A stretch of 64,000 nt of DNA from positions 1-64,000 of the forward strand of contig NZ_NEGZ01000010.1 in the NCBI RefSeq assembly GCF_002127585.1, in the 5' to 3' direction. Positions 7,252 through 31,483 of this stretch are shown in pieces. Every line of letters begins with the position of its first letter. Within the stretch, counting starts at the first letter, position 1. The notes under the pieces are model-generated. The model did no database searches. It saw only the letters and a program-made list of their open reading frames with translations, and was not told the DNA's origin. Source of the stretch: Janthinobacterium sp. GW458P (GTDB lineage: Bacteria > Pseudomonadota > Gammaproteobacteria > Burkholderiales > Burkholderiaceae_D). The position numbers and the translations under genes were made by a program.

Positions 7252-7518
7252 CTACCCTATCGTGGCCACGGGCAGGCTGGCGATCAGCGCGCAGCCGCAA
7301 GCGCTTTTATGCCCATGCAGCGCCACCTTGCGCCCGCCGATACTGAGGACGGCGCTGCCTTCGATGATGGGATTGCTGCCATGGCCCGGCAGCGGGCACG
7401 CGACCATGTCGCCCACCCTGGCGATGCCGATGCCGCGGATCGTGTGCACGGGAGAGGCGCTTGCCACGACGCCACCGTGGGTCGTTTTGTCGCCGAGCCG
7501 GATGATTGCGAGCGCCAT
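7252..7518 (-). CDS. PAAR-domain spike tip protein
   Basis: 88 residues, essentially one PAAR domain: GDKTTHGG at residues 9-16, GDMVACPLPGHG at 36-47 and VALHGHKSACGC at 66-77. PAAR proteins cap the VgrG needle and bind a metal through His and Cys residues such as those seen here. The start is the ATG at 7518, one base after the stop of the Tle1 gene, so the effector and tip gene are almost certainly co-translated. This points to delivery of the lipase through this tip. Confidence 0.85.
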   Translation of the reverse strand: MALAIIRLGDKTTHGGVVASASPVHTIRGIGIARVGDMVACPLPGHGSNPIIEGSAVLSIGGRKVALHGHKSACGCALIASLPVATIG

Positions 7519-7519
7519 G

Positions 7520-9622
7520 TCAGAATCCCAGCTGATTGCGCCGGAAGGCACTCCAGCCATCTTCGATCGCTTTGGCCTGCGCATCGATGCTGTCGCCAAC
7601 CGCCTTGGCCGCCTTGCTGGCGCCACTCTGTACACTGCGTGCGGCCTCCGTGGCCATCTCCTGGGCCTGGCTGGCGCCACGCTGCACCTTGCCTGCGGCT
7701 TCGGTGGCCATGTCCTTGGCCTGCTTGACGCCGCTTTGCACCTTGCGTCCGGCCTCGGCCGCCAGCTCCTGTGTCGCGTCCACCACCTCGCCGGCCTTTT
7801 TCTGCACGGCCGTGGCGGCATCGCTGACCTCTTTCTTGACGACATTAATCGACGTGATGACCATCTGCTGGCCGCGCTTTGCGGCGGCGATGACGACCTG
7901 CTTGCCGCTCTGATACACCTCCACCGTATAGGTGACGCCCGCCTTCACGGTCTCGACGACAAATTTTTCACCCACCTTGTACGTATGCGTGGCCACCCGC
8001 TTGCCGCCTTCCCAGGTTTCCATCACCACGCCCTCGGCCCGGTGGTACACCTTGATCACGCCCTTCTTGATGGCAGTGACGGTATCGTCCAGCCAGTCCA
8101 AGCCTTGCGCCAGCACATTGCGCGACGACTCGGCCATGCCGCGCGGACGGAAATAGCTGAATGGTTCGATGCCACCCATGAAGCCGGCCTTGGAATCATG
8201 CACCGCGGATTTGATGAAATTGAGTACGGGATCGGATGCCGTCGCTTGCCAGGCATCGAGCCGCCACTTTTCCGGGCGTATGACCATGCTGTACTTCATG
8301 CCGATGACCTGCAGCGTTGCTGCCGATACCGTGGGCAGAATATGCGACTCGACAAAATCTTTTGCTTTGGCGTAATCCAGTAACAATTCAGCTTCACGCG
8401 CAATGCCGGGATGACCTTTTTTGCTGCCAGCGGCGCTCTCGGCTTCAATCAGGTCCGGCGTCTTGATTTTTCGCTTGGTCATGGTGCCCCACGTGGAATA
8501 CAGGGCTTTCATATGAGCCGTAACAGCTTGCTCGACGGTGGCGGGAACACCAATTGCTGCCATGTATTGCTTGTAAGAAGCTTCAACCTCCGGTTTGATC
8601 TTAAAACGCGTTTCGAAGATATCTTCGTCATACTTGGAGACATCTTCGTAGGCGACCAGCCTTACGCCATTTTTAATGGCCTCGCTCATCATGTCGCGCA
8701 TTGGAATACGCGCATAGTTATTAAAAATTTTCTGGTTTTCTGGCTCGTATCCACCTCCCACGTCGGAGTGCGCGCCCGGGTAGATTGTTTCAGTCCAACC
8801 AGGCTTGAGCATGCCATTCTTCCTGATCAGATCGACGGGAAATGAAAAGCGTAGCTCATGGGCTGCCACGTAGTGTACGCAACGCTCAACAGCATGCGAT
8901 ACCACGAGATTCTTTTCGTTAAATGGCGTATCAATGGTGAGCGACGGTAAGCCAAATGAGGCGACCGTATCGAATAACCCCATGAAGTTCATGCGTATGG
9001 GCACGCCGTTGTAACGCAGCACATCATCTGTTCCGGTAATACATTTTTTAAGCATATCGTTGCTGAATGCCCGAGCGAGCGCCGCGCCGCGTGAAAAACC
9101 AAAGATAGAGATATTAATTATGTTAATCAAACCATGAGCAGCGATCGCAGCACTGAGGCCACTGATATTTTCCGGCTTTCCTTCTTGAAGATAGACCGTC
9201 AAAGGTACTTTGAGTTTAGCCGCCTCTTTCAGAAGTGCAGCCCGCAAATGCACATCGACTTGACTTTTCCCAAACTCTGTACGACGTGTTCCACCGGAAC
9301 CCAATCCACCTCCCGCGAAACTGGAATCCTGCAATTTATCCATCCAGTCTGTGGCCGTAGCATTGAACTGGGTACCAACGCCCGGGACATAAATAGCGTA
9401 GTTTGGCTTCTCACCATCTACAAGAAACTGTGCAGACCGCCATATCCGCGCCGGATTTGCCCATTTCCGAAGTCGTTTATCCGCATCCCTATTATTACCG
9501 GTCCCATCAAAAAATATACTGATGTTCACAACATCAGAACAACTCTGTGCAGCGCCAGGATTCGCAGTAGTAACGTCCCGATTACAAGCACGGGCACCAC
9601 CTATTTTATCAAATTCATCCAT
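7520..9622 (-). CDS. Tle1-family (DUF2235) T6SS phospholipase effector
   Basis: 700 residues. The N-terminal half is a DUF2235 alpha/beta-hydrolase: FDGTGNN at residues 38-44, the nucleophile elbow GFSRG at 175-179 (Ser177), the acid in FDTVASFG (Asp218) and the His in YPGAHSDVGGGY. Tle1 enzymes cleave membrane phospholipids in the periplasm of target cells. The last 150 residues are a charged amphipathic region ending in 18-residue repeats (KVQSG/KVQRG units). The ATG at 9622 is preceded by AGGAAG lying inside the end of the upstream lipoprotein gene; an upstream GTG frame is ignored. The 5' half is noticeably more AT-rich than the 3' half, suggesting a mosaic origin. Confidence 0.85.
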   Translation of the reverse strand: MDEFDKIGGARACNRDVTTANPGAAQSCSDVVNISIFFDGTGNNRDADKRLRKWANPARIWRSAQFLVDGEKPNYAIYVPGVGTQFNATATDWMDKLQDSSFAGGGLGSGGTRRTEFGKSQVDVHLRAALLKEAAKLKVPLTVYLQEGKPENISGLSAAIAAHGLINIINISIFGFSRGAALARAFSNDMLKKCITGTDDVLRYNGVPIRMNFMGLFDTVASFGLPSLTIDTPFNEKNLVVSHAVERCVHYVAAHELRFSFPVDLIRKNGMLKPGWTETIYPGAHSDVGGGYEPENQKIFNNYARIPMRDMMSEAIKNGVRLVAYEDVSKYDEDIFETRFKIKPEVEASYKQYMAAIGVPATVEQAVTAHMKALYSTWGTMTKRKIKTPDLIEAESAAGSKKGHPGIAREAELLLDYAKAKDFVESHILPTVSAATLQVIGMKYSMVIRPEKWRLDAWQATASDPVLNFIKSAVHDSKAGFMGGIEPFSYFRPRGMAESSRNVLAQGLDWLDDTVTAIKKGVIKVYHRAEGVVMETWEGGKRVATHTYKVGEKFVVETVKAGVTYTVEVYQSGKQVVIAAAKRGQQMVITSINVVKKEVSDAATAVQKKAGEVVDATQELAAEAGRKVQSGVKQAKDMATEAAGKVQRGASQAQEMATEAARSVQSGASKAAKAVGDSIDAQAKAIEDGWSAFRRNQLGF

Positions 9623-9623
9623 A

Positions 9624-10127
9624 TCACTTCCTGTTCGAACGAATATTTTTACCACGTTCTGTAATCTCAGGGAGATATTCATGAAATGTAATCTCAGCAG
9701 TATCGTCTGGATAAAGATGTAGGCCAAGATAACGGGTTCTGGGTGGAATTTTCTCTTGGAAAATCACCAATTCATTCTTAACTTTCATAAGTTCTCCATT
9801 TCGCGGCGTCCCCTTTGGTCCACCCAGAGTCCACTCCAACTTTTGAACGCCGAATGGAATGACAACTCCAGCAACGGTTCCGGTACTACCGTATTTATTC
9901 ATCACACCTAAGTCTGTATCATTAAAAATAATGTTAGTAATTACCCTATCCACGTTGGAATACATAACTACATCTAATATTATTTCTTTTTTCATTTTTC
10001 CTCCTCCTTGACCACACGCCGAGAGCGGGATTAATAGAAGCAATCCCAAAAAACCAAGCATGCTTCGACGGCATATAATTGATTGAATTTTTTTATTTTT
10101 AAAAATACGATTTCTATCATACTCCAT
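9624..10127 (-). CDS. lipoprotein, probable Tle1 immunity protein (paralogue A)
   Basis: 167 residues with a signal peptide and lipobox (LLIPLSAC, Cys about residue 38). The mature domain shares blocks with two neighbouring paralogues: YSNVDRVITNI, LGVMNKYG, GPKGTPRNGE, IPPRTRYLGLHLYPDDT. Its TGA is one base before the Tle1 start, the closest possible placing for an effector-immunity pair. Tle effectors act in the periplasm and their immunity proteins are often lipoproteins, so the role follows from family knowledge plus position. I chose the ATG at 10127, which has GGGGAAA upstream, over a GTG at 10154. AT-rich compared with the T6SS core. Confidence 0.7.
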   Translation of the reverse strand: MEYDRNRIFKNKKIQSIICRRSMLGFLGLLLLIPLSACGQGGGKMKKEIILDVVMYSNVDRVITNIIFNDTDLGVMNKYGSTGTVAGVVIPFGVQKLEWTLGGPKGTPRNGELMKVKNELVIFQEKIPPRTRYLGLHLYPDDTAEITFHEYLPEITERGKNIRSNRK

Positions 10128-11034: not shown

Positions 11035-11511
11035 CTATTTCTTTCTGTCAGCAAGAATTTTTTGGCCTCTGGCTGTTAGTTCTGGTATGCCTTCAGCAAA
11101 GGTGAACTCGACCGTATCGTCGGGGTAAAGATGTATGCCAAGATAGCGCGTTCCTGGTGGTATCTGTTCCGGAGAAATCACCAGCGGCCCCTTAGCGGTC
11201 ACCACCTCGCCAATGCGCGGAGTACCCCTTGGCCCATCCAACTCCCAATGCAATGCCTGAACGCCGAACGGGATCTGGACACCAGCAATAGTTCCCGTAG
11301 CACCATACCGATTCATCACACCCAGGGGCGTACCGTTAAAAGAAATGTTGGTAATGACATGATCAATATAAGAGATAACCTCCACATTCAGCCATATCTC
11401 TTTCCTTACCGCTTGCCCGCACGCCGCCAGCGGCAGTATCAAACCGCACGCGATCAATCCGAGCGCCAGCCGACGGCCTGGCGTCCTTGCTTCTTGTTTC
11501 CAGATACTCAT
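11035..11511 (-). CDS. lipoprotein, probable immunity paralogue C
   Basis: 158 residues with lipobox LILPLAAC (Cys about residue 31) and the same mature domain as its two paralogues: VISYIDHVITNI, LGVMNRYG, GPRGTPRIGE, IPPGTRYLGIHLYPDDTVEF. The ATG overlaps the stop of the DUF4123 adaptor gene (ATGA), so it is coupled to it. Of the three copies this is the first in the operon and the most GC-rich, the closest in composition to the T6SS core. Function as immunity to the Tle1 effector is inferred from location and export. Confidence 0.65.
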   Translation of the reverse strand: MSIWKQEARTPGRRLALGLIACGLILPLAACGQAVRKEIWLNVEVISYIDHVITNISFNGTPLGVMNRYGATGTIAGVQIPFGVQALHWELDGPRGTPRIGEVVTAKGPLVISPEQIPPGTRYLGIHLYPDDTVEFTFAEGIPELTARGQKILADRKK

Positions 11512-12422
11512 GGAAACTGGTCCATGGCGGCTTCAAAGCTGATGTCGCCAGCCTTGACCTGCGCCAGCAGTGACGCAATGGCCGGGTTGGTCTGGAGCTT
11601 GTCGCCGTAGATCAAGGCGGCGCAGATGTAGTTCAGAATGTCGCGCATGCCGGACAGCTTCAGTTTGCGGGCGGCCAACAGGTGTTTTTGCACGAGACGG
11701 TAGTGCTGCGCGCGTGGAATATCCATCAGCAGCTGCGGCTGGTTCTCCTGCAGCATCGACAAAAGCTGGTCCGGCATGCCCGCTTCGACCAGCATGTCGA
11801 CCTGCACCTGGGCCAGCTTGAGCGGCAAGGTCACCTGATGGGGCGGCAGACCGTTGTCGTTTTCGCCTGGCAGTATCTGCTGCGGATGGCCTTCGCGGTC
11901 CCAGTACCACCATGCCTGTATGCCCTGCAGCAGGCGCTCGCGCTGGGAAACGGTCAGCGCCGGCACGCCTACGTGCAAAGTCAGGTCGCTTTTCTGTCCC
12001 ATCAGGGTGCCCAGGATGGCCGGGTCCCAGAAGGCAAAAATCATGTCGGTGCCGTCCGGCAGCAGTATCTCGGTAAACGCCGCCAGGCTTTCCCACAGCG
12101 TGTCGAAATCATCAGTACTTGCCAGCAGCGTAAGGCTGGCGGGATGGCTGGCGGCGCCTTGCGCGATTTCCGGCCACGTTTCGATATCGGCGGCCAGTGG
12201 CGACAACGCCACCAGATGGGGCGCGTACGCTTCCGTGTCGGATCCGAGCGCCGCTGGCAGCAGGCACTTGCTGCGCATGCTGATCTGCTCTTTTTCAAAG
12301 CGCGCCAGCAGCGTGCCGTCCTGCGCCTGGTCGACAATGGCATAACAGCTCAGTTCACGATTGTCGAGCGCACTTGCCAGGTTTGCTTCAAACGAAGCCT
12401 GATCCAGAGGTAAAAATTTCAT
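11508..12422 (-). CDS. DUF4123 effector-loading chaperone (Tap-1/TEC type)
   Basis: 304 residues. The N-terminal two-thirds match the DUF4123 pattern (CYAIVDQAQDG, LVALSPLA, TEILLPDG, MIFAFWDPAIL). DUF4123 proteins bind a specific effector in the cytoplasm and hand it to its VgrG; here the gene sits between vgrG and the Tle1 module, so Tle1 is the likely client. The ATG at 12422 has AAGGA upstream and overlaps the stop of the chimeric small gene (ATGA); its own stop overlaps the next lipoprotein start. An in-frame upstream extension lies inside the chimeric gene and is not used. Confidence 0.75.
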   Translation of the reverse strand: MKFLPLDQASFEANLASALDNRELSCYAIVDQAQDGTLLARFEKEQISMRSKCLLPAALGSDTEAYAPHLVALSPLAADIETWPEIAQGAASHPASLTLLASTDDFDTLWESLAAFTEILLPDGTDMIFAFWDPAILGTLMGQKSDLTLHVGVPALTVSQRERLLQGIQAWWYWDREGHPQQILPGENDNGLPPHQVTLPLKLAQVQVDMLVEAGMPDQLLSMLQENQPQLLMDIPRAQHYRLVQKHLLAARKLKLSGMRDILNYICAALIYGDKLQTNPAIASLLAQVKAGDISFEAAMDQFP

Positions 12423-12667
12423 CGTTGAGGTCCTTTGTTGACGAAGGCGGAGCGCTGTTTTGCGCGCTTTTGCAGGCATTCCTTGCAGACTCCCTGCGAC
12501 CGTACCGCGCCACGCGCCGCGGCCGCCTTTTTCGTGGTTTTATTTTTTTGTCCGAAAGCCGCAAGCGGCATCATCACACCCAGTCCTATCAAGCCCAGCA
12601 CACTGCGCCGGCCTGACAGCAGTGGCTGCAATGACTTGCCGGACATATCTCGTTTGTCGTGCCTCAT
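12419..12667 (-). CDS. chimeric small gene: lipoprotein start fused to a copy of the VgrG tail
   Basis: 82 residues. Residues 1-45 resemble the start of immunity paralogue B (SGRRSVLGLIGLGVMMPLA) but the lipobox Cys is replaced (AAFGQ). The last 26 residues resemble the VgrG C-terminus at 12705 (CKECLQKRAKQRSAFVNKG against CMECLKKRAKQRTAFVNKG). The ribosome-binding leader also matches paralogue B. It looks like a product of a recombination that inserted an immunity-gene start and duplicated the vgrG end. It may still be translated, but probably has no function of its own; a pseudogene call would be equally fair. Confidence 0.6.
   Translation of the reverse strand: MRHDKRDMSGKSLQPLLSGRRSVLGLIGLGVMMPLAAFGQKNKTTKKAAAARGAVRSQGVCKECLQKRAKQRSAFVNKGPQR
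12421..12490. repeat. direct repeat, copy 1 (vgrG 3' end duplication)
   Basis: Seventy bases that match 12707-12776 at about 63 positions. On the minus strand they encode the C-terminal Cys/Lys-rich tail of VgrG and the junction into the next gene. Confidence 0.85.
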
Positions 12668-12704
12668 GATGTTCTATCCTTTATGTATTCCAGCGATGAA
12701 AATG

Positions 12705-15242
12705 TCATCGTTGCGATCCTTTGTTGACGAAGGCCGTACGCTGTTTTGCGCGCTTTTTCAGGCATTCCATGCAGACTTCCATGGGCAGCACCGGCAGCGC
12801 ATACGGCATGGTCTTCGGGCCGGGCATCGAGAAGTCGGCGTTATGGCTGATGCGCTGGCCGCTCGTCATGTCGGTGATGCCCGCGCCGTTGATCCTGATG
12901 GCCGAGCCATCGGCGCCGAGAATGATCTCCTTCTTGGCGAAAATTTCGATGCGGTCGGTGGCTGACAGCAGGCGCAATACTTTTTGGGCGATGATGTCGA
13001 TGTCGCCGCCGTGGGCCTGGATCTCGACCTTTCCTTTTGCGGCGAACAGCTTGATGCCCGCGTTGTAGGCAAACAGGCTGATTTTCTCCTTGACGCTGGC
13101 GATCAGGCTCTTGCCGACAGCCAAATTGATATCCTCGCCCGACGACATGGTGACCTGCTCGCCGCTGTGCAGATGCGTGCTCTTCGGCGTGGCGAGGCCG
13201 ATGCCGGCCGGCGACGCCGCCAGCAGCACCGGTTCGGCGAAGCGGTTGGCGCCCTGCTGGCCGGCGCCGTCGTATTGCGCCTGGGTCGCGTCGATGAATT
13301 GCTGGAACGCCTGCTGCCCCGGCAGTGCCTCGGCACTGGACTTTTCCGCCACGTCCGACAGATTTTGCGCCAGCTCGTGCGCCTGCGTCAGCTGATCGTA
13401 TGCCTCGCGCACGTCGAGCTGGGAGCCGCGCCCGCCGGGCCGGCCATAGGTGCTGATGTACAGTCCCTTTTGCGTGGTGATGGCGCCATACGCATCCGAA
13501 TTGAGGGCGAAGCCGGAACCGAAAAAGCCGTCGCGCTGATTGCCCTGCTGCCCTACCAGATAGCCCAGGTTCAGCTGCGCATGGGTATTGCTGCTGTACA
13601 GCTGCACCCGGTTCTGCTCGGTGTTGTCGTCCATCACCAGCTGGTTGAAGCCGGCGCCCTTGTATTCCTTCGATTTGTAGCCCGACATGCGTCCATCGGT
13701 ATGCCATTGCGGCGCTTGTTCGCCGTTGTAGATGCGGCCCGTGATGATGGGCCGGTCCACGTCGCCGTCCAGGAAGGTGATGATCACTTCCTGGCCGACG
13801 CGCGGCACATGCACGGCACCATATCCCTCGCCGGCATTCGGATAGCTGACGCGCACCCAGCACGAGGCCTTTTCGTCGCCGGGATTGAGGCGATCCCAGT
13901 GGAAGCGCACCTTCACGCGGTTCAGCGCATCGGTATGGATTTCCTCGCCGGCCGGACCGACCACGGTGGCCGTCTGCGGATGCATGGCCGGCTTGGCGTG
14001 CACGCAGGCGCTGCGGTATTCCACGCTGCGGCGCTGCACTTCGAAGCGGTTGAAGCAGTGGCCGGTGCGCTCATCGCCGGCGCCGGGCTGGGCCAGGCCG
14101 GCGCACTTCAGGCCCGCCTCTTCCTTGAACTGCAGCAGACGGCCTTGCAGGCTGCCCGAAAAATCCTGTTGCATGCCTGACAGCGGCAGGTTGTTTTCGA
14201 TCGCCCATTCCACGTCCAGCACGACGAACTGGCGCTCCTCGGCCGCCTCCTCGGCGTGGGCCGGATGGTCGAGCAAGGTAAACCAGCAGCCTACCGGCAG
14301 CCGGCGCACGCCCGAGGTGCCAAAAAACCGCTTGATGCGCGATTCCCACTCCTGCACCCGGATGCGCGATTGTTCCGCGCCGTGCTCGGTGTCGGCGCTG
14401 CTGTAGGCGCCCGTATATTCATAGACCTCGAGCTGCGACGGAATACTGCCGTGCCCTGGCAAGATCTGCACGGCATTCTGCTGACCGCTGCGAGGCGCCT
14501 TGTAGTCGTAGGTGCGGGTCGCCAGCTGACTGTTCGACAGCGTGCGGGCGCCGCCCCACTGGACGATCTTGTCCAGTTCCTCGGTGGCATCGGCACGGTG
14601 AAAGGCGATCTGCCCGGGCTGCAGCGGCTTGAGCGATTGCACCGAATCGGTGATGATCCACTGATGGCCGCTGCCATCGGCCGCCTGTTCGACATAGCCG
14701 TACCAGCCTTCGCTTTCCAGCATGCGCATGACAAATTGCCAGTCCGTCTCGTACTGCGTGCAATACGAGCGCTGGCGCACCGCCTGGTTCAGGTCGAACC
14801 TGAACTTGCCCTGGCATTGCGGATGGCCGCCCAGCACGTCGGCGATGATGTCGTCGGCGCCCTTGTTCTGCCAGATGCGCGCGTCCTTGCGGAACTTTAG
14901 GAAATGCAGGCAGCTGGCAAAAGCAATCTGGTAGACCGACAGCTGCCCGTCGCTGCCCAGCTTCCTGGCCGTGTGTACGTAACCGTGGACGGGCTGGTAG
15001 CTGGCGTCCGGCTGCAGTACCCACAAGGTCACTTCCTGGGCGATCAGCTGCTTGAGTTCCAGCGCCTCGTCGAGCGACAGCAGATCGACGATATAGTCGT
15101 ATCCCTGGCTCACGCGGTCCACCGCATGGACGCGCTGCGCCAGCAGGACGTCGGCTCCCAGCGGCGTGTCCAGCTTGAGCAGCCTGGCGTGCTGGCCCAT
15201 TCCCGCGAACATGTTTTCCAGTTCCTGTTGCAACTCAGCCAT
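12705..15242 (-). CDS. vgrG: VgrG spike protein with DUF2345 domain
   Basis: 845 residues: a gp27-like region (about 1-380), a gp5-like OB/beta-helix region containing VRVSYPNAGEGYG and VGQEVIITFLDGDVDRP (about 450-520), and a DUF2345 extension (about 640-790) with repeated short beta strands. VgrG trimers form the puncturing tip and carry effectors. The tail ends in a Cys-x2-Cys, Lys/Arg-rich peptide that is duplicated in the next gene. AAGGAG precedes the ATG. It follows clpV by 15 bases and heads the Tle1 effector module, so it is the likely carrier for that lipase. No catalytic extension is seen. Confidence 0.88.
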   Translation of the reverse strand: MAELQQELENMFAGMGQHARLLKLDTPLGADVLLAQRVHAVDRVSQGYDYIVDLLSLDEALELKQLIAQEVTLWVLQPDASYQPVHGYVHTARKLGSDGQLSVYQIAFASCLHFLKFRKDARIWQNKGADDIIADVLGGHPQCQGKFRFDLNQAVRQRSYCTQYETDWQFVMRMLESEGWYGYVEQAADGSGHQWIITDSVQSLKPLQPGQIAFHRADATEELDKIVQWGGARTLSNSQLATRTYDYKAPRSGQQNAVQILPGHGSIPSQLEVYEYTGAYSSADTEHGAEQSRIRVQEWESRIKRFFGTSGVRRLPVGCWFTLLDHPAHAEEAAEERQFVVLDVEWAIENNLPLSGMQQDFSGSLQGRLLQFKEEAGLKCAGLAQPGAGDERTGHCFNRFEVQRRSVEYRSACVHAKPAMHPQTATVVGPAGEEIHTDALNRVKVRFHWDRLNPGDEKASCWVRVSYPNAGEGYGAVHVPRVGQEVIITFLDGDVDRPIITGRIYNGEQAPQWHTDGRMSGYKSKEYKGAGFNQLVMDDNTEQNRVQLYSSNTHAQLNLGYLVGQQGNQRDGFFGSGFALNSDAYGAITTQKGLYISTYGRPGGRGSQLDVREAYDQLTQAHELAQNLSDVAEKSSAEALPGQQAFQQFIDATQAQYDGAGQQGANRFAEPVLLAASPAGIGLATPKSTHLHSGEQVTMSSGEDINLAVGKSLIASVKEKISLFAYNAGIKLFAAKGKVEIQAHGGDIDIIAQKVLRLLSATDRIEIFAKKEIILGADGSAIRINGAGITDMTSGQRISHNADFSMPGPKTMPYALPVLPMEVCMECLKKRAKQRTAFVNKGSQR
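12707..12776. repeat. direct repeat, copy 2 (original vgrG 3' end)
   Basis: Counterpart of 12421-12490, about 90 percent identical. This copy lies in the intact vgrG gene and is presumably the parent. Confidence 0.85.
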
Positions 15243-24698: not shown

Positions 24699-25056
24699 GA
24701 TCTGGTTTCCCTCAAAAAAAGATGACGCGGTCATTAGAAAAAAAGTTGCAATTTATAGTTGCTAAATTCTTATTTTTGCGAGACTAACACGGATTTAATA
24801 TTGACTCCGTTCAATAGAAAATACGCGAAATCTCACATTCCGATCGGCCGCAAAGGCCGGCGCCATGCGGAAAACGTACCGTACGCACCTTTCTTCCAGA
24901 TAATGTTAATGTTGTTGCAGTTGTGAAAAAAGCACATAGTTTCTTGTTGCAAATATTGAATGATCGACCGTGCCGGCAAGCCGGCGATCGCGCGTCAGGA
25001 GAGCCCGGAGCGGCAGCGTTCTCCGCGCTTTTATTCCTCAGGCAAAAGGGCAATCG
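24699..25056. promoter_or_regulatory. divergent promoter region between the tssB and tssK operons
   Basis: 358 bases between two divergent T6SS operons, with an AT-rich core (24720-24830) that contrasts with the GC-rich genes either side. Both transcripts must start here or upstream of it. I could not pick out a convincing sigma-54 or activator site. A GCCGGC-AA-GCCGGC hairpin lies at about 24971-24984 in the tssK leader. Confidence 0.6.
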
Positions 25057-26403
25057 ATGAGCATTACAAGCAAATTGTTATGGGGTGAAGGCCTGTTTCT
25101 GCGCCCCCAGCACTTCCAGCAGCAAGACCAGTACCATGAGCATCGCCTGCACGAAAGTATCAAGGCGCTGCATCCCTACGCCTGGGGTGTCAACCACATG
25201 CAGATCGACCGCGATGCGCTGAGCAATCACACCCTGCGGCTGCTGGAACTGTCGCTGGTATTCCAGGACGGCGAAATCTACAACGCGCCGGGCGCCGATG
25301 AATTGCCCGAAGCCCTGGACTTGAGCGCGCTGCAGCAATCTCAGCAAGCAGTCACGTTTTATGCCGCCCTGCCCGCCTTCAAGCATTTCGGCGGCAACTT
25401 TGCCGCGCTTGGCCAGCCCAACAGCGCGGCGCGCTACGGCCAGGCCAACCTGGAAACGCCCGACCTGTACACCCATGCAGCGCAGGCCGAACTGGCCTAC
25501 CTGCAAAAATCACTGCGCCTGGTGGCCGAATCGGAACCGCGCGATTCGTATGTCAGCTTCCCCCTGCTGCGCCTGCGGCGCCTGTCGACCGGCGGCTTCG
25601 AGCCCGACCCGTCGTTCGTGCCGCCGAGCCTGTCGATCCGCAGCGCGCCGCTGCTGTTCCTGCAACTGCGCCGCCTGATCGATGCGCTGCAGGCAAAGGT
25701 GAACGCCCTGTACGGCCACCACCGCGAACCGAGCAAGAATGTGATCGAATTTCGTTCCGGCGACATGTCCTCGTTCTGGCTGCTGCACACGGCCAGTTCC
25801 GCGTTCGCCTCGCTCAGCCATTATTTCCATCATCCGGCGCTGCATCCGGAGCGTTTGTACGAAGCGCTGCTGGCGCTGGCCGGCGCGCTGATGACGTTCT
25901 CGAAAACCCATGCGCTGGCCGACCTGCCGGCCTACCAGCACGCCGATCCCGGGCCGTCATTCGCGCGCCTGCACGCGATCATCCGCGAACTGCTCGATAC
26001 GGTGATCTCGTCAAAATATTTCGCCATTGCGTTGACCGAAGTCAAGCCGTCTTACCATCACGGCAAGCTCGACTCGGGCAAGATCGACGACAAGACCGCG
26101 TTTTACCTGGGCGTCTCGGCCGACATGCCGGGCGTGGAACTGGTGGACGTGGTGCCGCTGCGCTTCAAGATCGGCGCGCCGGACGACGTGGAAAAATTCG
26201 TGCTGTCGGCCCTGCCCGGCGTGCGCCTGCAGCACACGCCGCAGGTGCCGGCCGCCGTGCCGGTGCGGCCCGATACGTATTACTTCACCATCGAGGCGAA
26301 GGGCCAGATGTACGAGCGCATGCTGCAGGCCCAGTCGATCTCGGTCTACGTTCCGTCCGGCATGCGGGACCTGAAACTTGAACTTGTCGCCATCACTTCC
26401 TGA
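25057..26403 (+). CDS. tssK: T6SS baseplate-membrane connector TssK
   Basis: 448 residues beginning MSITSKLLWGEGLFLRPQHF, the typical TssK start; FIALTEVKPSYHHGKLDSG-type and YYFTIEAKG blocks follow. TssK links the baseplate to TssL and TssM in the membrane. The ATG at 25057 has AAAGGG upstream; a longer in-frame reading begins in the divergent promoter region and is rejected. tssL follows after 9 bases. Confidence 0.9.
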   Translation: MSITSKLLWGEGLFLRPQHFQQQDQYHEHRLHESIKALHPYAWGVNHMQIDRDALSNHTLRLLELSLVFQDGEIYNAPGADELPEALDLSALQQSQQAVTFYAALPAFKHFGGNFAALGQPNSAARYGQANLETPDLYTHAAQAELAYLQKSLRLVAESEPRDSYVSFPLLRLRRLSTGGFEPDPSFVPPSLSIRSAPLLFLQLRRLIDALQAKVNALYGHHREPSKNVIEFRSGDMSSFWLLHTASSAFASLSHYFHHPALHPERLYEALLALAGALMTFSKTHALADLPAYQHADPGPSFARLHAIIRELLDTVISSKYFAIALTEVKPSYHHGKLDSGKIDDKTAFYLGVSADMPGVELVDVVPLRFKIGAPDDVEKFVLSALPGVRLQHTPQVPAAVPVRPDTYYFTIEAKGQMYERMLQAQSISVYVPSGMRDLKLELVAITS

Positions 26404-26412
26404 AGATAAACG

Positions 26413-27192
26413 ATGAATGCAAACGCCCCCTCCCTGATGTCCGGCGGCTCCGCCGCGTATGCATCGAGCGTACCGGCCGGCCCAGGCACTGAACATGCGC
26501 TGAGCGATCTGATGTACGACGGTTTCTATGCCCTGTTCATGCTGAAAAACGGCAGCGGCCCGCAAGATAATGCTGACTTCATCAGAAAAATGACGCAGTT
26601 TCTCGACGAGTTCGGCCACGCGGCGAAAAAGCATGGCGCCTCGGCCGATGATATCGATGCCGCCAAATACGCATTCTGCGCGGCTGTCGACGAAATCATC
26701 CTGCGCTCGCCGTATGCCATCCGCGACGACTGGGCGCGCCGGCCGCTGCAACTGGTGCTGTTCGGCGACCAGCTGGCCGGCGAGAACTTCTTCATCCGCC
26801 TTGAAGCACTGCGTGCGCGCGGCAGCGCCCACCTGCAGGCGCTGGAAGTGTTCCACATGTGCCTGCTGCTCGGTTTCCAGGGCCGCTATATCCTGGAAGG
26901 CTCTGAAAAACTGGCCTACCTGACGGCCCGCCTGGGCGACGAGATCGCCCAGATGAAGGGCAAGAAAGCCGGCTTTGCACCACATGCGGAGCGCCCCGAC
27001 CAGATCGCGCACAAGTTGCGTAACGACGTGCCGCTATGGGTGCTGTGCTCGGTGTTCGCGCTGATCAGCGCACTGGGCTACCTGGGCCTGCGCACCATGC
27101 TGGCCAAAAACACGGAGCGCCAGATGAACGCCTACAGCGATATCGTCAAGCTGGCGCCACGCACGGCCAACCTGACCATCACGTTGCCGTAA
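26413..27192 (+). CDS. tssL: T6SS membrane protein TssL (short form)
   Basis: 259 residues: cytoplasmic DotU-like domain (about 25-200) and one C-terminal membrane helix (about 207-231: LWVLCSVFALISALGYLGL). There is no peptidoglycan-binding OmpA domain after the helix, only about 28 residues. This fits with a separate OmpA-domain protein at 3128. The TAA stop shares a base with the ATG of the following vgrG (TAATG), so TssL and that VgrG are coupled. Confidence 0.88.
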   Translation: MNANAPSLMSGGSAAYASSVPAGPGTEHALSDLMYDGFYALFMLKNGSGPQDNADFIRKMTQFLDEFGHAAKKHGASADDIDAAKYAFCAAVDEIILRSPYAIRDDWARRPLQLVLFGDQLAGENFFIRLEALRARGSAHLQALEVFHMCLLLGFQGRYILEGSEKLAYLTARLGDEIAQMKGKKAGFAPHAERPDQIAHKLRNDVPLWVLCSVFALISALGYLGLRTMLAKNTERQMNAYSDIVKLAPRTANLTITLP

Positions 27193-30100
27193 TGAGCGGC
27201 CTGGCAACGACAGACACTGCCCTGGACGTGTTCGGCACCGGCCTGTCCCAGCATGCGCGGCTGATCACGCTGAGCACGGCGCAGGAATCGAACCTGCCCG
27301 AATCGCTGATGGCCGAACGGCTGACGGGCCGCGAGGCGGTCAATGAACTGTTCCGCTTCGAGCTCGATGCCCTGAGCACGGCGGCAAGCCTGGACCTGGC
27401 CAGCTTTCTCGGCGAAGAAATCACGGTCAAGCTGCTGCAGCCCGACGGCAGCTGGCGCGCCTGGCACGGACTGTGCACCGATTGCGCCTTTGCCGGCGCC
27501 GACGGCGGCGTGGCGCGCTACCGGCTGCGCCTCGAACCCGCCCTGGCCTTGCTGGCCTTGCGCCGCGACAGCTATATCTTCCAGGACAAGAACGCGCGCG
27601 ACCTCATCACGGAACTGCTTGGCGACTATCCGCAGGTCCGCTTCGAATTCGATGTCAGCCAGGAACTGGCACCGCGCCCGGTCTGGACGCAATACCGCGA
27701 GAGCGACCTGGCCTTCCTGACCCGCGTGCTTGCTTTCGAAGGCCTGAGCTGGCGCTTCGAGCACGAGCAGGATGGCGCGGCACAAGAAGGCACGCAACAG
27801 AACGAACGACAGGCAAAGCACAAGCTGGTCATTTTCGACAGCAAGGCCGTCGCGCCAGCGACGCCGGGCGTTGCCGGCCTGCGCTTTCACGGCGTGCGCG
27901 CCAGCGATACCGATGACGCCATCAACAGCTTCGGCGCGCGGCGCCAGGTGCGGCCCAATGCGGTCGGCATCAGCAGCTGGGACCCGCAGCAGCTGGCGGC
28001 GCCGGCCGCCGAACACAGCTCCAGCCTGGCGGCCGGCGAATTGCCGCCCCTGCCGCTGTACGACGGCGCCGGCGAACGGCGCCATGCCGACAGCACGGCG
28101 GCCGGTCCGCGCGGCCTGCGCATGCTGCAGGCGCTGGAGCTGGAGAACAAGCAATTCACGGGCGGTGGCGCGGTGCGGCGCATGGCTGCCGGCTACGCCT
28201 TCGACCTGCTGCAGCACGAGCATTATCCCGATGGCGCCAACCAGTTCACCGTGCTGTGGGTCGAGCACCAGGCACGCAACAATCTGGGGCCGGCCGGCGG
28301 CGCGCTGACGACGGTGCTGTCGAAACTGTCGAAAATAGCCAGTCTGGGCGACGTCGCCAGCCTGCTCGATGGCCAGCTTGAGGCCGGCACCTACCGCAAC
28401 ACCTTCGGCTGCGTGCGCACCAGCGTGGCCATCGTGCCGCGCGCCACCGCTGCGTGCCAGGCCAGCAGCGCGCTGGGGCCGCAAACGGCACTGGTGGTCG
28501 GACTGCCCGACAGCGTGGCCACCACCGGACGCGACCATCAGGTACGCATCCAGTTCGCCTGGCAACGCGGCAGCGCCGCCAATCCGGGCGGCATGACGCA
28601 CAACACGGATCAACAGGGCAACGCTCCCGGCAACGAAGCGTCAGGCGCCTGGGTACGCGTGGCCGAAGCGCTGGCCGGTCCGAACTGGGGTTCGCAATTT
28701 ACGCCGCGCATCGGCACCGAAGTGCTGGTCGATTTCATCGAAGGCGACATGGACCGCCCGCTGGTGGTGGCCCAGCTCTATACGGGCAACGACGCGCCGC
28801 CCTATGCGGCCGGCGTCGATTCGGACGTCAACCACGCCGGCGTCATTTCCGGCATCCACAGCCATAATTTCGATGGCGGCGGCTATAACCAGTGGGTAAT
28901 CGACGACACGCCGGGCCAGTTGCGCACCCGCCTGGCGACGAGCAGCGCGGCCACGCAGCTGAACCTCGGCTACCTGGTACAGCAAGGCGTGGGCACGGCC
29001 CAGCGCGGCAGTTACCGCGGCAGCGGCTTCGAACTGCGCACCGACGCCTGGACCGTGCTGCGCGGCGGCGAAGGCGTACTCATCTCTACCAGCGCCCGCG
29101 CACGGACGGGCGCGGGCGTGACCTCTACCCAGCTCGACACTGCGGAAGCGCTGGGCCAGCTGAAAGGCGCGGCCGAACTGAACAAGTCGTTGGCCGAGGC
29201 CGCGCAACAACAAACCGCCCTGTTCAGCCAGGAAGCGAAACAGGCCCAGCTGGACCTGATCAAACAGATCGACCCGCAGCAGGACGGCAAATACCAGGCC
29301 AGCCTGGGCGGGCAGGAAGCGCTGAAGACCAGCGCAGGCGAGCGCAAACTAGCCACCGACCAGCCGGTGGAAAAATTCGGCCAGCCGCTGGTACTGATGG
29401 AGGCACCCGCCAGCATCAACTGGGCCACCCCCGGCTCGACCGTCATGTTTGCGGCCCAGCAGCTGCAATGGACCACGCAATCGGACCTGCACATGACGGC
29501 TGGCCACACTTATTCGTGCGTGTCGGCCAGTGCGCATGGGTTGTTTGCCCACACCGGCGGCATCCAGGCGATCGCCGCCAACGGCCCGGTATCGCTGCAG
29601 GCACATACGGGGCAACTGGAGATTCTGGCCGACAAGGCCATTACCGTGATCTCGGTCAACGACAGCATCGACATCAAGGCCAACCAGAAGATCACCCTGC
29701 AGGCCGGGCAGTCGTCGATCACCTTAGAGGGCGGCAATATCACGTTCACCTGCCCCGGCAACTTCACCGTCAAGGGTGGCCAGCACCTATTTAACGGCGG
29801 CGCCAGCGCGGCCGGCATGCTGCCGGCGCTGCCCGATACGCGCATCAAGCTGTTCGATGAAGGCTTCGTGCTGCGCGACCGCGACACGGGTGAACCGATG
29901 CCGCGCCAGCCCTACCGCATCAAGCGCGAAGATGGCAGCTATGAGAGCGGCATGACGGACGAAAAGGGCTTGACGCATGTGATTGCAGCAGCCGCCGCCG
30001 AGGCGCTGGTGATCGAGCTGCTGAAAACCGTGGGCGGCCAGGGTGCGGCCCCGGCACCCGCCCCCTCTTCAACTCCGGCGCCGGTCCCAGGTTCACCAGG

Positions 30101-30995
30101 GCAGCCGGCAGCCAGAGCCAGGACCGACACCCCGCCGGAACCGAAATACAAGCCGGCAGGCGACTCCAGCACCACGCCGGTGGATAACAAGCGCCGCAAG
30201 GAAGTGCTGGTCAAGCTGCCGGCCTGCTGGATCGAGGACTACGAAAAGGAAATCGCCGGTCCCTCTTATGGCCGCTATGCGCAGCCGTTCCAGCACGACG
30301 GCACGCCGCACAAATACAAGGACAAGATCTGGTTCAAGCTGTACGTGCCGGCAAAAACGGACCGTCCCGTGGTGGTGGAAGTACGTTTCAAGGCCATCAC
30401 GGTACTGGACGCGGCAGGACAGGCGCTGGAAGAGAGCGACAAGGGCACGGAATCGGCGGCGCTGCGCGTCAAGCAACGCGCCAACGTGGTGGCGCTGGCG
30501 CAGAAAAACGCGACGGCCGGCATCGAGGGCAACTGGAACAACAAGTTCCGGCTTGAAATCAATGATCCGCAATGCGGACAAAAAGTGTTGCCCGTGGTTT
30601 TCCGCGTCCTCTGGGTCGATGATCAGCAGCACTACACGCTGCAGATCCACAAGCGCTATGACCGCGAAAACGTGACCGGCGACGTCATGAACGTGTCGCT
30701 GGCAACGGCACTGACCACGTATGCGCATGAATTCGGGCATTGCGTCGGCATGCCCGACGAATACTCGTACACGGAGTTCGAAGAAACTGTACGCTATTTC
30801 AAACCGGACGGCACGCTCGACGAGCCCATCGTTTGCCACGTCAACGGCACCTCGCCGGAAGACCTGACGCAATCGATCATGTCGTATGCGGAAGGCGCGC
30901 GGATATTGAAACGCCACGGCTGGAATATCGCGATTGAAGCACAGGAATTACTGAGCAAAAAAATCGGCAGGAAAATACGATGCGATATTGTCTGA
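27192..30995 (+). CDS. vgrG: specialised VgrG with C-terminal metzincin-type protease domain
   Basis: 1267 residues. VgrG body about 1-650 (FELDALSTA early; VRVAEALAG and TPRIGTEVLVDFIEGDMDRP in the gp5-like part), DUF2345 about 690-870, then a transthyretin-like segment (about 885-940), a Pro-rich linker (about 950-985) and a C-terminal domain. That domain has HEFGHCVGMPDEY at 1179-1191, i.e. HExxHxxGxxD with ligands His1179, His1183 and possibly Asp1189, and SIMSY around Met1230, the metzincin Met-turn. A bactericidal VgrG protease (VgrG2b of Pseudomonas) is known; this one is likely an effector acting in the target periplasm. The ATG at 27192 overlaps the tssL stop. Confidence 0.87.
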   Translation: MSGLATTDTALDVFGTGLSQHARLITLSTAQESNLPESLMAERLTGREAVNELFRFELDALSTAASLDLASFLGEEITVKLLQPDGSWRAWHGLCTDCAFAGADGGVARYRLRLEPALALLALRRDSYIFQDKNARDLITELLGDYPQVRFEFDVSQELAPRPVWTQYRESDLAFLTRVLAFEGLSWRFEHEQDGAAQEGTQQNERQAKHKLVIFDSKAVAPATPGVAGLRFHGVRASDTDDAINSFGARRQVRPNAVGISSWDPQQLAAPAAEHSSSLAAGELPPLPLYDGAGERRHADSTAAGPRGLRMLQALELENKQFTGGGAVRRMAAGYAFDLLQHEHYPDGANQFTVLWVEHQARNNLGPAGGALTTVLSKLSKIASLGDVASLLDGQLEAGTYRNTFGCVRTSVAIVPRATAACQASSALGPQTALVVGLPDSVATTGRDHQVRIQFAWQRGSAANPGGMTHNTDQQGNAPGNEASGAWVRVAEALAGPNWGSQFTPRIGTEVLVDFIEGDMDRPLVVAQLYTGNDAPPYAAGVDSDVNHAGVISGIHSHNFDGGGYNQWVIDDTPGQLRTRLATSSAATQLNLGYLVQQGVGTAQRGSYRGSGFELRTDAWTVLRGGEGVLISTSARARTGAGVTSTQLDTAEALGQLKGAAELNKSLAEAAQQQTALFSQEAKQAQLDLIKQIDPQQDGKYQASLGGQEALKTSAGERKLATDQPVEKFGQPLVLMEAPASINWATPGSTVMFAAQQLQWTTQSDLHMTAGHTYSCVSASAHGLFAHTGGIQAIAANGPVSLQAHTGQLEILADKAITVISVNDSIDIKANQKITLQAGQSSITLEGGNITFTCPGNFTVKGGQHLFNGGASAAGMLPALPDTRIKLFDEGFVLRDRDTGEPMPRQPYRIKREDGSYESGMTDEKGLTHVIAAAAAEALVIELLKTVGGQGAAPAPAPSSTPAPVPGSPGQPAARARTDTPPEPKYKPAGDSSTTPVDNKRRKEVLVKLPACWIEDYEKEIAGPSYGRYAQPFQHDGTPHKYKDKIWFKLYVPAKTDRPVVVEVRFKAITVLDAAGQALEESDKGTESAALRVKQRANVVALAQKNATAGIEGNWNNKFRLEINDPQCGQKVLPVVFRVLWVDDQQHYTLQIHKRYDRENVTGDVMNVSLATALTTYAHEFGHCVGMPDEYSYTEFEETVRYFKPDGTLDEPIVCHVNGTSPEDLTQSIMSYAEGARILKRHGWNIAIEAQELLSKKIGRKIRCDIV

Positions 30996-31483
30996 CACTG
31001 CTTACCTATGCCATGCTGATGGCACTACCATCGAAAGCCAATAACATGACGAGCACTCACGCTCCCCTCTCCATTTCCCTGCAATGCCTGGGCAACGCTG
31101 GCTGCGTCTATCAGCGCAAGCCGATCGACATGCTGGTCACCATCCGCAACGATGGCAGCCGCGATATCGGTTTTCCGCTCGACTACCTGCGCAAGTCGGG
31201 CCCGATCGTCAAATTCATCGATACCGATACGGGCGCCGTCACCTACGCCCGCCGTGGCCTGGCCAATCCGGCGCTGAAAACGCAATTCACCACAATTGCG
31301 CCAGGCGCCTCGGTTTCCATGGAAATCGATGTGCATCCCACCGACATTGAAACGTTTCGCATCGACAAAGTCGATATCAGCGTGGAAGTGATATTGAAGG
31401 GCAACATACGCATCGATGGCGAAGCAGAGCTGCAGGACTACCAGGGCGGCGCAAAGATCCGCGTCTTTGAAAAAGAGGAATAA
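30980..31483 (+). CDS. exported protein, likely immunity to the VgrG protease
   Basis: 167 residues with a Sec signal peptide (about 1-21, ending PSKA). The mature part is a beta-rich single domain with no family I recognise; Cys36 and Cys41 might form a disulfide. The ATG lies 16 bases inside the end of the specialised vgrG, an overlap typical of effector-immunity pairs. Export to the periplasm matches where the protease domain would act. Role inferred from position and export. It could alternatively be an accessory protein. Confidence 0.65.
   Translation: MRYCLTLLTYAMLMALPSKANNMTSTHAPLSISLQCLGNAGCVYQRKPIDMLVTIRNDGSRDIGFPLDYLRKSGPIVKFIDTDTGAVTYARRGLANPALKTQFTTIAPGASVSMEIDVHPTDIETFRIDKVDISVEVILKGNIRIDGEAELQDYQGGAKIRVFEKEE

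Follow-up and report, generated by a model that had tools for sequence, protein, structure and literature searches.

An evolved VgrG that ends in a zinc peptidase has been described for the type VI secretion system (T6SS) of Pseudomonas aeruginosa (VgrG2b-PA0261), together with Tpe1-Tpi1 of A. baylyi. In the available portion of the article that presents them (PMC6899460), the VgrG is extended by DUF2345, a linker and the C-terminal peptidase, a small envelope-targeted protein with cysteines is encoded adjacent to it, and the peptidase domain of the Tpe/Tpi family is carried on VgrG, on PAAR or as cargo. The same portion describes a TTR-like linker for VgrG2b and classifies its peptidase as a gluzincin with Glu983 as the third ligand, whose relatives are often annotated as DUF4157; the authors could not identify substrate cleavage. 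Here we describe a locus of this general design in Janthinobacterium sp. GW458P, within the first 64,000 nucleotides of contig NZ_NEGZ01000010.1 (this whole stretch, analysed at full length, is the window, and all positions given for the locus refer to it). It consists of an evolved vgrG (27192..30995, plus strand, 1267 aa) with a metzincin-like C-terminal domain, and of a gene for a small partner (30980..31483, plus strand) that overlaps its end by 16 nt (30980..30995).

We think it probable that the two genes are a T6SS effector-immunity pair, namely a spike-borne metzincin-type protease and the partner that inhibits it. A preliminary description of the window had suggested that they may define a new effector-immunity pair. 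This is supported, and the family that they represent, new but of a type already known in general terms, is a well-supported one; the partner accompanies the domain in 13 of the 13 Janthinobacterium genomes with the domain and in the four lineages that have it outside the genus. The same description had named VgrG2b as a precedent. VgrG2b-PA0261 is indeed the closest system in design and the layout is similar, but the peptidases part ways: VgrG2b is reported as a gluzincin (available text of PMC6899460), unlike the window domain with its HExxHxxGxxD motif and later invariant Met, and by the tests run the two protease domains appear unrelated.

Architecture of the evolved VgrG

The identity of the protein as VgrG/TssI is given by the gp27 hub, gp5 OB and Vgr domains in this order and by its match to TIGR03361 (E=9.7e-85; 285 bits against a cut-off of 186). 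Pfam places the gp27-like hub (Phage_GPD) at 27330..28283 (residues 47-364), the gp5-like OB domain (Phage_base_V) at 28635..28781 (residues 482-530) and T6SS_Vgr at 28866..29204 (residues 559-671), followed by the DUF2345 spike extension at 29358..29804 (residues 723-871, E=1.3e-49). The linker (29862..30119, residues 891-976) has a weak phmmer match (E=0.13) to residues 11-100 of PDB 6h56 and runs into a Pro-rich stretch, judged by eye, at about 30042-30146 (residues about 951-985). The remaining 283 aa (30144..30992) form the metzincin-like domain. The reading frame thus agrees with the earlier account of the protein in its length, its DUF2345 and Pro-rich linker, and its C-terminal motifs. 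There is a second in-frame ATG upstream, at 27036, and therefore the start at 27192, which is also that of the L020 product, is likely and not proven.

The metzincin-like domain

The putative zinc-binding and catalytic motif, HEFGHCVGMPD, is found at residues 1179-1189 (30726..30758) and is followed by SIMSY, a candidate Met-turn, at residues 1228-1232 (30873..30887). The motif His, Glu, His, Gly and Asp, together with the later Ile-Met, are invariant in all 14 rows of one alignment (A2) and in the 8 rows of another (A6), which adds the sequences from G1170 and Escherichia coli. When the 283-aa tail was shuffled 200000 times, HExxHxxGxx[HD] arose by chance 12 times, and never with S-x-M-S after it. 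The sequence thus contains the two marks of metzincins of MA(M), HExxHxxGxx[HD] and a downstream Met, the latter recognised by position and invariance only, and the invariant Asp1189 sits, judging from the sequence alone, at the position of the metzincin third ligand.

Families M6, M7, M12, M64 and M66 are metzincins or near metzincins, and it is to these that the profiles lean. When the 14 domain members were scanned against Pfam at E<=1, 11 families were listed: Peptidase_M6 and Reprolysin_5 matched all 14 (best E 4.9e-5 and 1.2e-4, respectively), Reprolysin_4 six, M66 and M7 two each, M64 and M60 one each, and four non-peptidase families one member each. The M6 domain of NCBIfam (TIGR03296) matched at E=1.3e-6, under its cut-off. 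A profile search of the PDB (E up to 10) gave 11 matches, five of them to zinc proteases (immune inhibitor A, IgA protease and snapalysin-type chains) at E 0.28-0.82 and confined to the motif. It is on the motif and these leanings that we term the domain metzincin-like, and a zinc protease of this kind is likely from the motif and the sub-threshold profiles.

Under a different affiliation, the domain would have diverged from within the VgrG2b/Tpe1 (DUF4157-type) family, and the partner would be related to PA0261. It would explain the common layout (VgrG, DUF2345, linker and HExxH domain, then a small exported protein) and the weak match of the linker to 6h56; we consider it highly improbable, given that 6h56 is absent from the matches of the domain profile even at E up to 10 and that the phmmer match to this structure covers the linker only. 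In profile comparisons the domain reached 39.7% over 16 columns with eight proteins of PF13699 (eCIS_core, formerly DUF4157). The value rose to 93.3% (29 columns) when seven M6 proteins were compared, and to 99.5% (154 columns) for four distant relatives, themselves found by searches started from the domain. On these profile tests we reject membership of the protease domain in the VgrG2b family; the partner side, PA0261, lay outside this comparison. The third ligand differs as well, being Glu983 in VgrG2b (available text of PMC6899460) and presumably the Asp of HExxHxxGxxD here. The source genome has four eCIS_core matches elsewhere (G000: C72, C143, C73, C103), perhaps candidates for the VgrG2b-like peptidase type.

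The nearest known motif region is that of M6 (immune inhibitor A) and of snapalysin M7, around HEFGHxxGLPDEY. These are weak matches, under the cut-offs shown, and the alignments with the PDB chains and the M6 profile barely exceed the motif. M6 and M7 peptidases are, moreover, secreted rather than spike-borne. The PDB chains named IgA protease, presumably M64, also match the window motif weakly. This recalls the 'Peptidase M64' of Salmonella pathogenicity island 6 (SPI-6), a T6SS effector candidate named in the available part of PMC11669294; just one of the 14 domain members touches Pfam M64, at E=0.062.

Other predicted HExxH peptidases of polymorphic or T6SS toxins are Tox-MPTase1-5 and Tpe2/M91 (as given in the accessible parts of PMC3482391 and PMC9846239), and no family of either type was among the 11 Pfam families that matched the 14 members at E<=1. 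A similar plan is seen in VgrG2 of Enterobacter bugandensis E104107, an evolved VgrG whose C-terminal HEXXH metallopeptidase is reported to differ from that of VgrG2b (available text of PMC10763514); the VgrG of Enterobacter wuhouensis discussed below (L038) likewise carries the domain core at its end. Unlike the window domain, that of E. bugandensis is called a gluzincin and placed at 689-757 in the same text. Compared by description only, it may belong to the family described here. In the open-licence literature we found no paper combining 'VgrG' and 'metzincin', and none that we recognised as describing this effector and partner.

The overlapping partner gene

The partner, a probable immunity protein, is a precursor of 167 aa including a signal-like start; the preliminary description had given this length to the mature protein, which has to be corrected, while the overlap with vgrG was as described. 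Its family is characterised by two invariant cysteines (Cys36 and Cys42) and by conserved N, P, G-P, L, I, G and F positions. A hydrophobic start is present in 17 of 18 partners (best 11-residue hydropathy 1.52-3.01 in a simple hydropathy window). No match was found in the PDB or NCBIfam, and none above cut-off in Pfam. The overlap with the effector gene is also 16 nt in L032, L033, L037, L038 and G1170, and 28 nt in L034, L035, L036 and L039.

We infer the following mechanism. The T6SS of the surrounding cluster would use the VgrG as its trimeric spike, each chain bearing a metzincin-type zinc protease domain beyond DUF2345 and a flexible linker, and upon firing the spike would deliver this domain into the cell envelope of a bacterial neighbour. 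In that place, His1179, His1183 and Asp1189 would bind a zinc ion, Glu1180 would act as general base, and a substrate would be cleaved. The partner would be exported, probably stabilised by one disulphide (Cys36-Cys42), and would bind the domain in the periplasm, so that the producer and its kin would be protected.

Occurrence within Janthinobacterium

The domain was found in 13 of 40 Janthinobacterium genomes and the partner in 15. In all 13 genomes with the domain the two genes are neighbours, and the partner gene begins before the effector gene has ended. The two additional partners are orphans in genomes free of the domain, one intact (G013, L061 6740-7291) and the other interrupted by a stop (G009, L062 5962-6564), and no T6SS genes were recognised in the surrounding 12.5 and 13 kb, which were inspected by eye with no profile scan made. 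Orphan immunity genes are a described defence against T6SS.

Both the domain and the partner are under purifying selection, with dN/dS values (domain/partner) of 0.11/0.20 in one clade of the genus and 0.20/0.27 in the other. Between the two clades the partner is 32-37% identical and the domain 53-56%. This analysis, as that of distances given below, covers the 13 genus loci only; at L024 (G016) an X/N run in the spike makes spike identity partial.

These data also bear on the target. The protease could be aimed mainly at eukaryotes (fungi, amoebae or animal cells), the partner only preventing self-damage from periplasmic leakage. Immune inhibitor A and IgA protease among the weak PDB matches would be in keeping with such a role, as would the trans-kingdom action proposed for VgrG2b, which has the same layout (available text of PMC6899460). 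Against it stand the retention of the partner in the 13 genus genomes and in the four outside lineages with the domain, and the orphan copies in genomes lacking the protease; retention and orphans together favour protection against bacterial attack, and we regard a mainly eukaryotic target as unlikely.

A tssL at least 78% identical to that of the window is found in 15 genomes, the 13 domain carriers plus G028 and G001. At the same place G028 (L059 4207-14996) has tssL twice. Behind each copy there is a vgrG frame, full in one case and partial in the other, and the genes after these frames include one for a LysM-M23 protein, which gave a weak Tse3-like match; in G001 the neighbour of tssL, on the side examined, is not vgrG but a gene for a GGDEF-EAL protein on the opposite strand. 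The spike position after tssL therefore looks like a site of toxin exchange. When the 5 kb downstream of the partner in the window were compared as DNA, no more than 2 of 16 loci matched, and in short pieces. In the assembly of G800 the tssL (L063, about 1639-2402) apparently consists of two pieces that overlap and lie in different frames.

Occurrence outside the genus

A first search for relatives was positive in 11 of 61 genomes, all of Janthinobacterium and the source genome among them. Apart from the source genome, 399 genomes of the order gave one weak match (G079), and 398 genomes of the phylum the same one. Full domains were found in four lineages outside the genus, and the partner was present in each of them. 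The first is a metagenome-assembled genome (MAG) named Candidatus Sulfopaludibacter, of the Acidobacteriota (L037), in which a stand-alone effector overlaps the partner by 16 nt and the reading frames of the 4.3-kb contig showed no vgrG; the phylum of this MAG gave 5 positive genomes of 297, the MAG included, the other four being weak. The second is E. wuhouensis (L038, which starts inside the VgrG at the contig end), with the domain core at the end of a VgrG and a 16-nt overlap. In its family 2 of 392 genomes were positive, E. wuhouensis itself included, and it is in this family that we find G1170, where a stand-alone domain, again with a 16-nt overlap, lies beside a VgrG and a DUF4123 adaptor.

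The fourth lineage is E. coli. In 6 of 5426 genomes a Tox-PAAR-like part and the domain make up one fusion protein, and the partner lies 60 nt downstream. Both genes are in the same six genomes, and blastn finds neither elsewhere in this set; direct blastn with the window domain found nothing in E. coli, and it was the E. wuhouensis copy, used as query, that found the E. coli copies. The domain is therefore seen on three scaffolds, VgrG-fused, PAAR-like-fused and stand-alone, and wherever the full domain was found the partner overlaps or closely trails the effector gene. Viral contigs had no relatives of the domain or the partner. Plasmids gave one weak match only (Paraburkholderia sp. 22B1P), and none for the E. 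wuhouensis form.

Evidence that weighs against the proposed pair

Several observations weigh against a periplasmic effector-immunity pair as outlined above. On the side of the protease, no metzincin profile matched above its curated cut-off wherever scores were shown, and the gathering cut-off of 22 bits for Peptidase_M6 (PF05547) was not reached (21.1, 18.6 and 20.7 bits). Six of the 11 PDB matches are PP2A subunits, at E 0.87-1.0, near those of the zinc proteases, and therefore the PDB matches alone are weak evidence and prove nothing. On the side of co-evolution, domain and partner distances correlate at 0.987 (78 non-independent pairs), a value that largely reflects shared ancestry. The Acidobacteriota case is one MAG contig that is possibly misbinned. 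There are also six weaker and more distant relatives with no partner homologue, namely G079, the Paraburkholderia plasmid and four genomes of the phylum of the MAG (one with an M6-like protein). For two of the six, L069 and L071, this result covers 1.5-kb flanks only; L072 was likewise read with at most 1.5 kb (G1272 is also L075). One of these partner-less relatives, L074, lies in a T6SS operon, behind a VgrG and a DUF4123 gene. The lipoprotein-like gene that follows the L074 homologue was tried as a distant partner and found unsupported (profile comparison 0.7%).

The result that tells most against one periplasmic model for all members is the E. coli partner. This protein (149 aa) has no export-like start (best hydropathy 0.83), and an in-frame stop four codons upstream of its start excludes a longer one. 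The exported partner claimed by the preliminary description would fit the 17 partners with a hydrophobic start and is therefore not universal; with no export-like start in its partner, the E. coli version of the toxin may be neutralised in the cytoplasm. This is also what would be expected of a cytoplasmic chaperone, and the partner might accordingly be a chaperone, co-effector or inhibitor involved in making or loading the protease instead of an immunity protein, a role that would fit its place overlapping or just behind the effector gene. The hydrophobic start of the other 17 partners, the intact orphan in a genome with no detected effector and the DUF4123 adaptor already present beside the stand-alone form of G1170 all speak against such a role, which seems to us quite improbable, and immunity is the function that we prefer for the partner.

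A companion gene recurs beside the effectors of the MAG locus L037 (419-1192), L073 (6088-6819, minus strand) and L074 (4952-5734), G1170 being among the genomes that have it. The L073 and L074 copies are 26% and 40% identical to that of L037, respectively, and have no Pfam match; a shorter relative was noticed by eye in L038 (1453-2067). The presence of this gene in the L074 operon and beside the G1170 effector ties the MAG pair to T6SS operons.

The T6SS cluster of the window

Profile scans of the frames show that the first half of the window is largely a T6SS cluster. The genes for a ClpV-type ATPase, tssG, tssF, a gp25-type tssE, hcp, tssC and tssB are on the minus strand, tssK and tssL on the plus strand, and icmF-, tagF-, OmpA- and impA-type genes at the left end. 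The baseplate gene tssK (24970..26403, plus strand; PF05936, E=1.4e-141) is codirectional with and upstream of tssL (26413..27192, plus strand; PF09850 DotU, E=6.7e-57) and vgrG. The stop codon of tssL ends at 27192, which is the A of the vgrG ATG, so that the two genes do share one base, as had been noted before. The source genome (6.28 Mb) has nine VgrG-hub matches and the metzincin-like domain in single copy.

Within the same cluster there is apparently a separate effector module on the minus strand (7252-9727 and 11508-15242). It would comprise a PAAR gene (7252-7845), a Tle1-like phospholipase effector (7520-9727), a DUF4123 adaptor (11508-12479) and a second VgrG (12705-15242), all on that strand. 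Inside the PAAR gene, Rfam matches the Pseudomonas small RNA P10 (7349-7417, minus strand; 40.9 bits against a cut-off of 37), possibly a chance or coding match.

Implications

Taken at its broadest, the family could be a mobile T6SS toxin of metzincin type, with an inhibitor of an unrecognised family, that has passed between Betaproteobacteria, Enterobacteriaceae and a lineage carrying the name of the Acidobacteriota while switching scaffold, and whose inhibitor lost its export signal in E. coli, so that the pair may act in the periplasm or in the cytoplasm depending on the host. We advance this scenario tentatively and would place it somewhat short of an even chance. A second family of zinc-protease T6SS effectors with its own probable inhibitor would offer another route to what such weapons cut, and the E. 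coli inhibitor, with no export-like start, would make the compartment in which the toxin acts directly testable.

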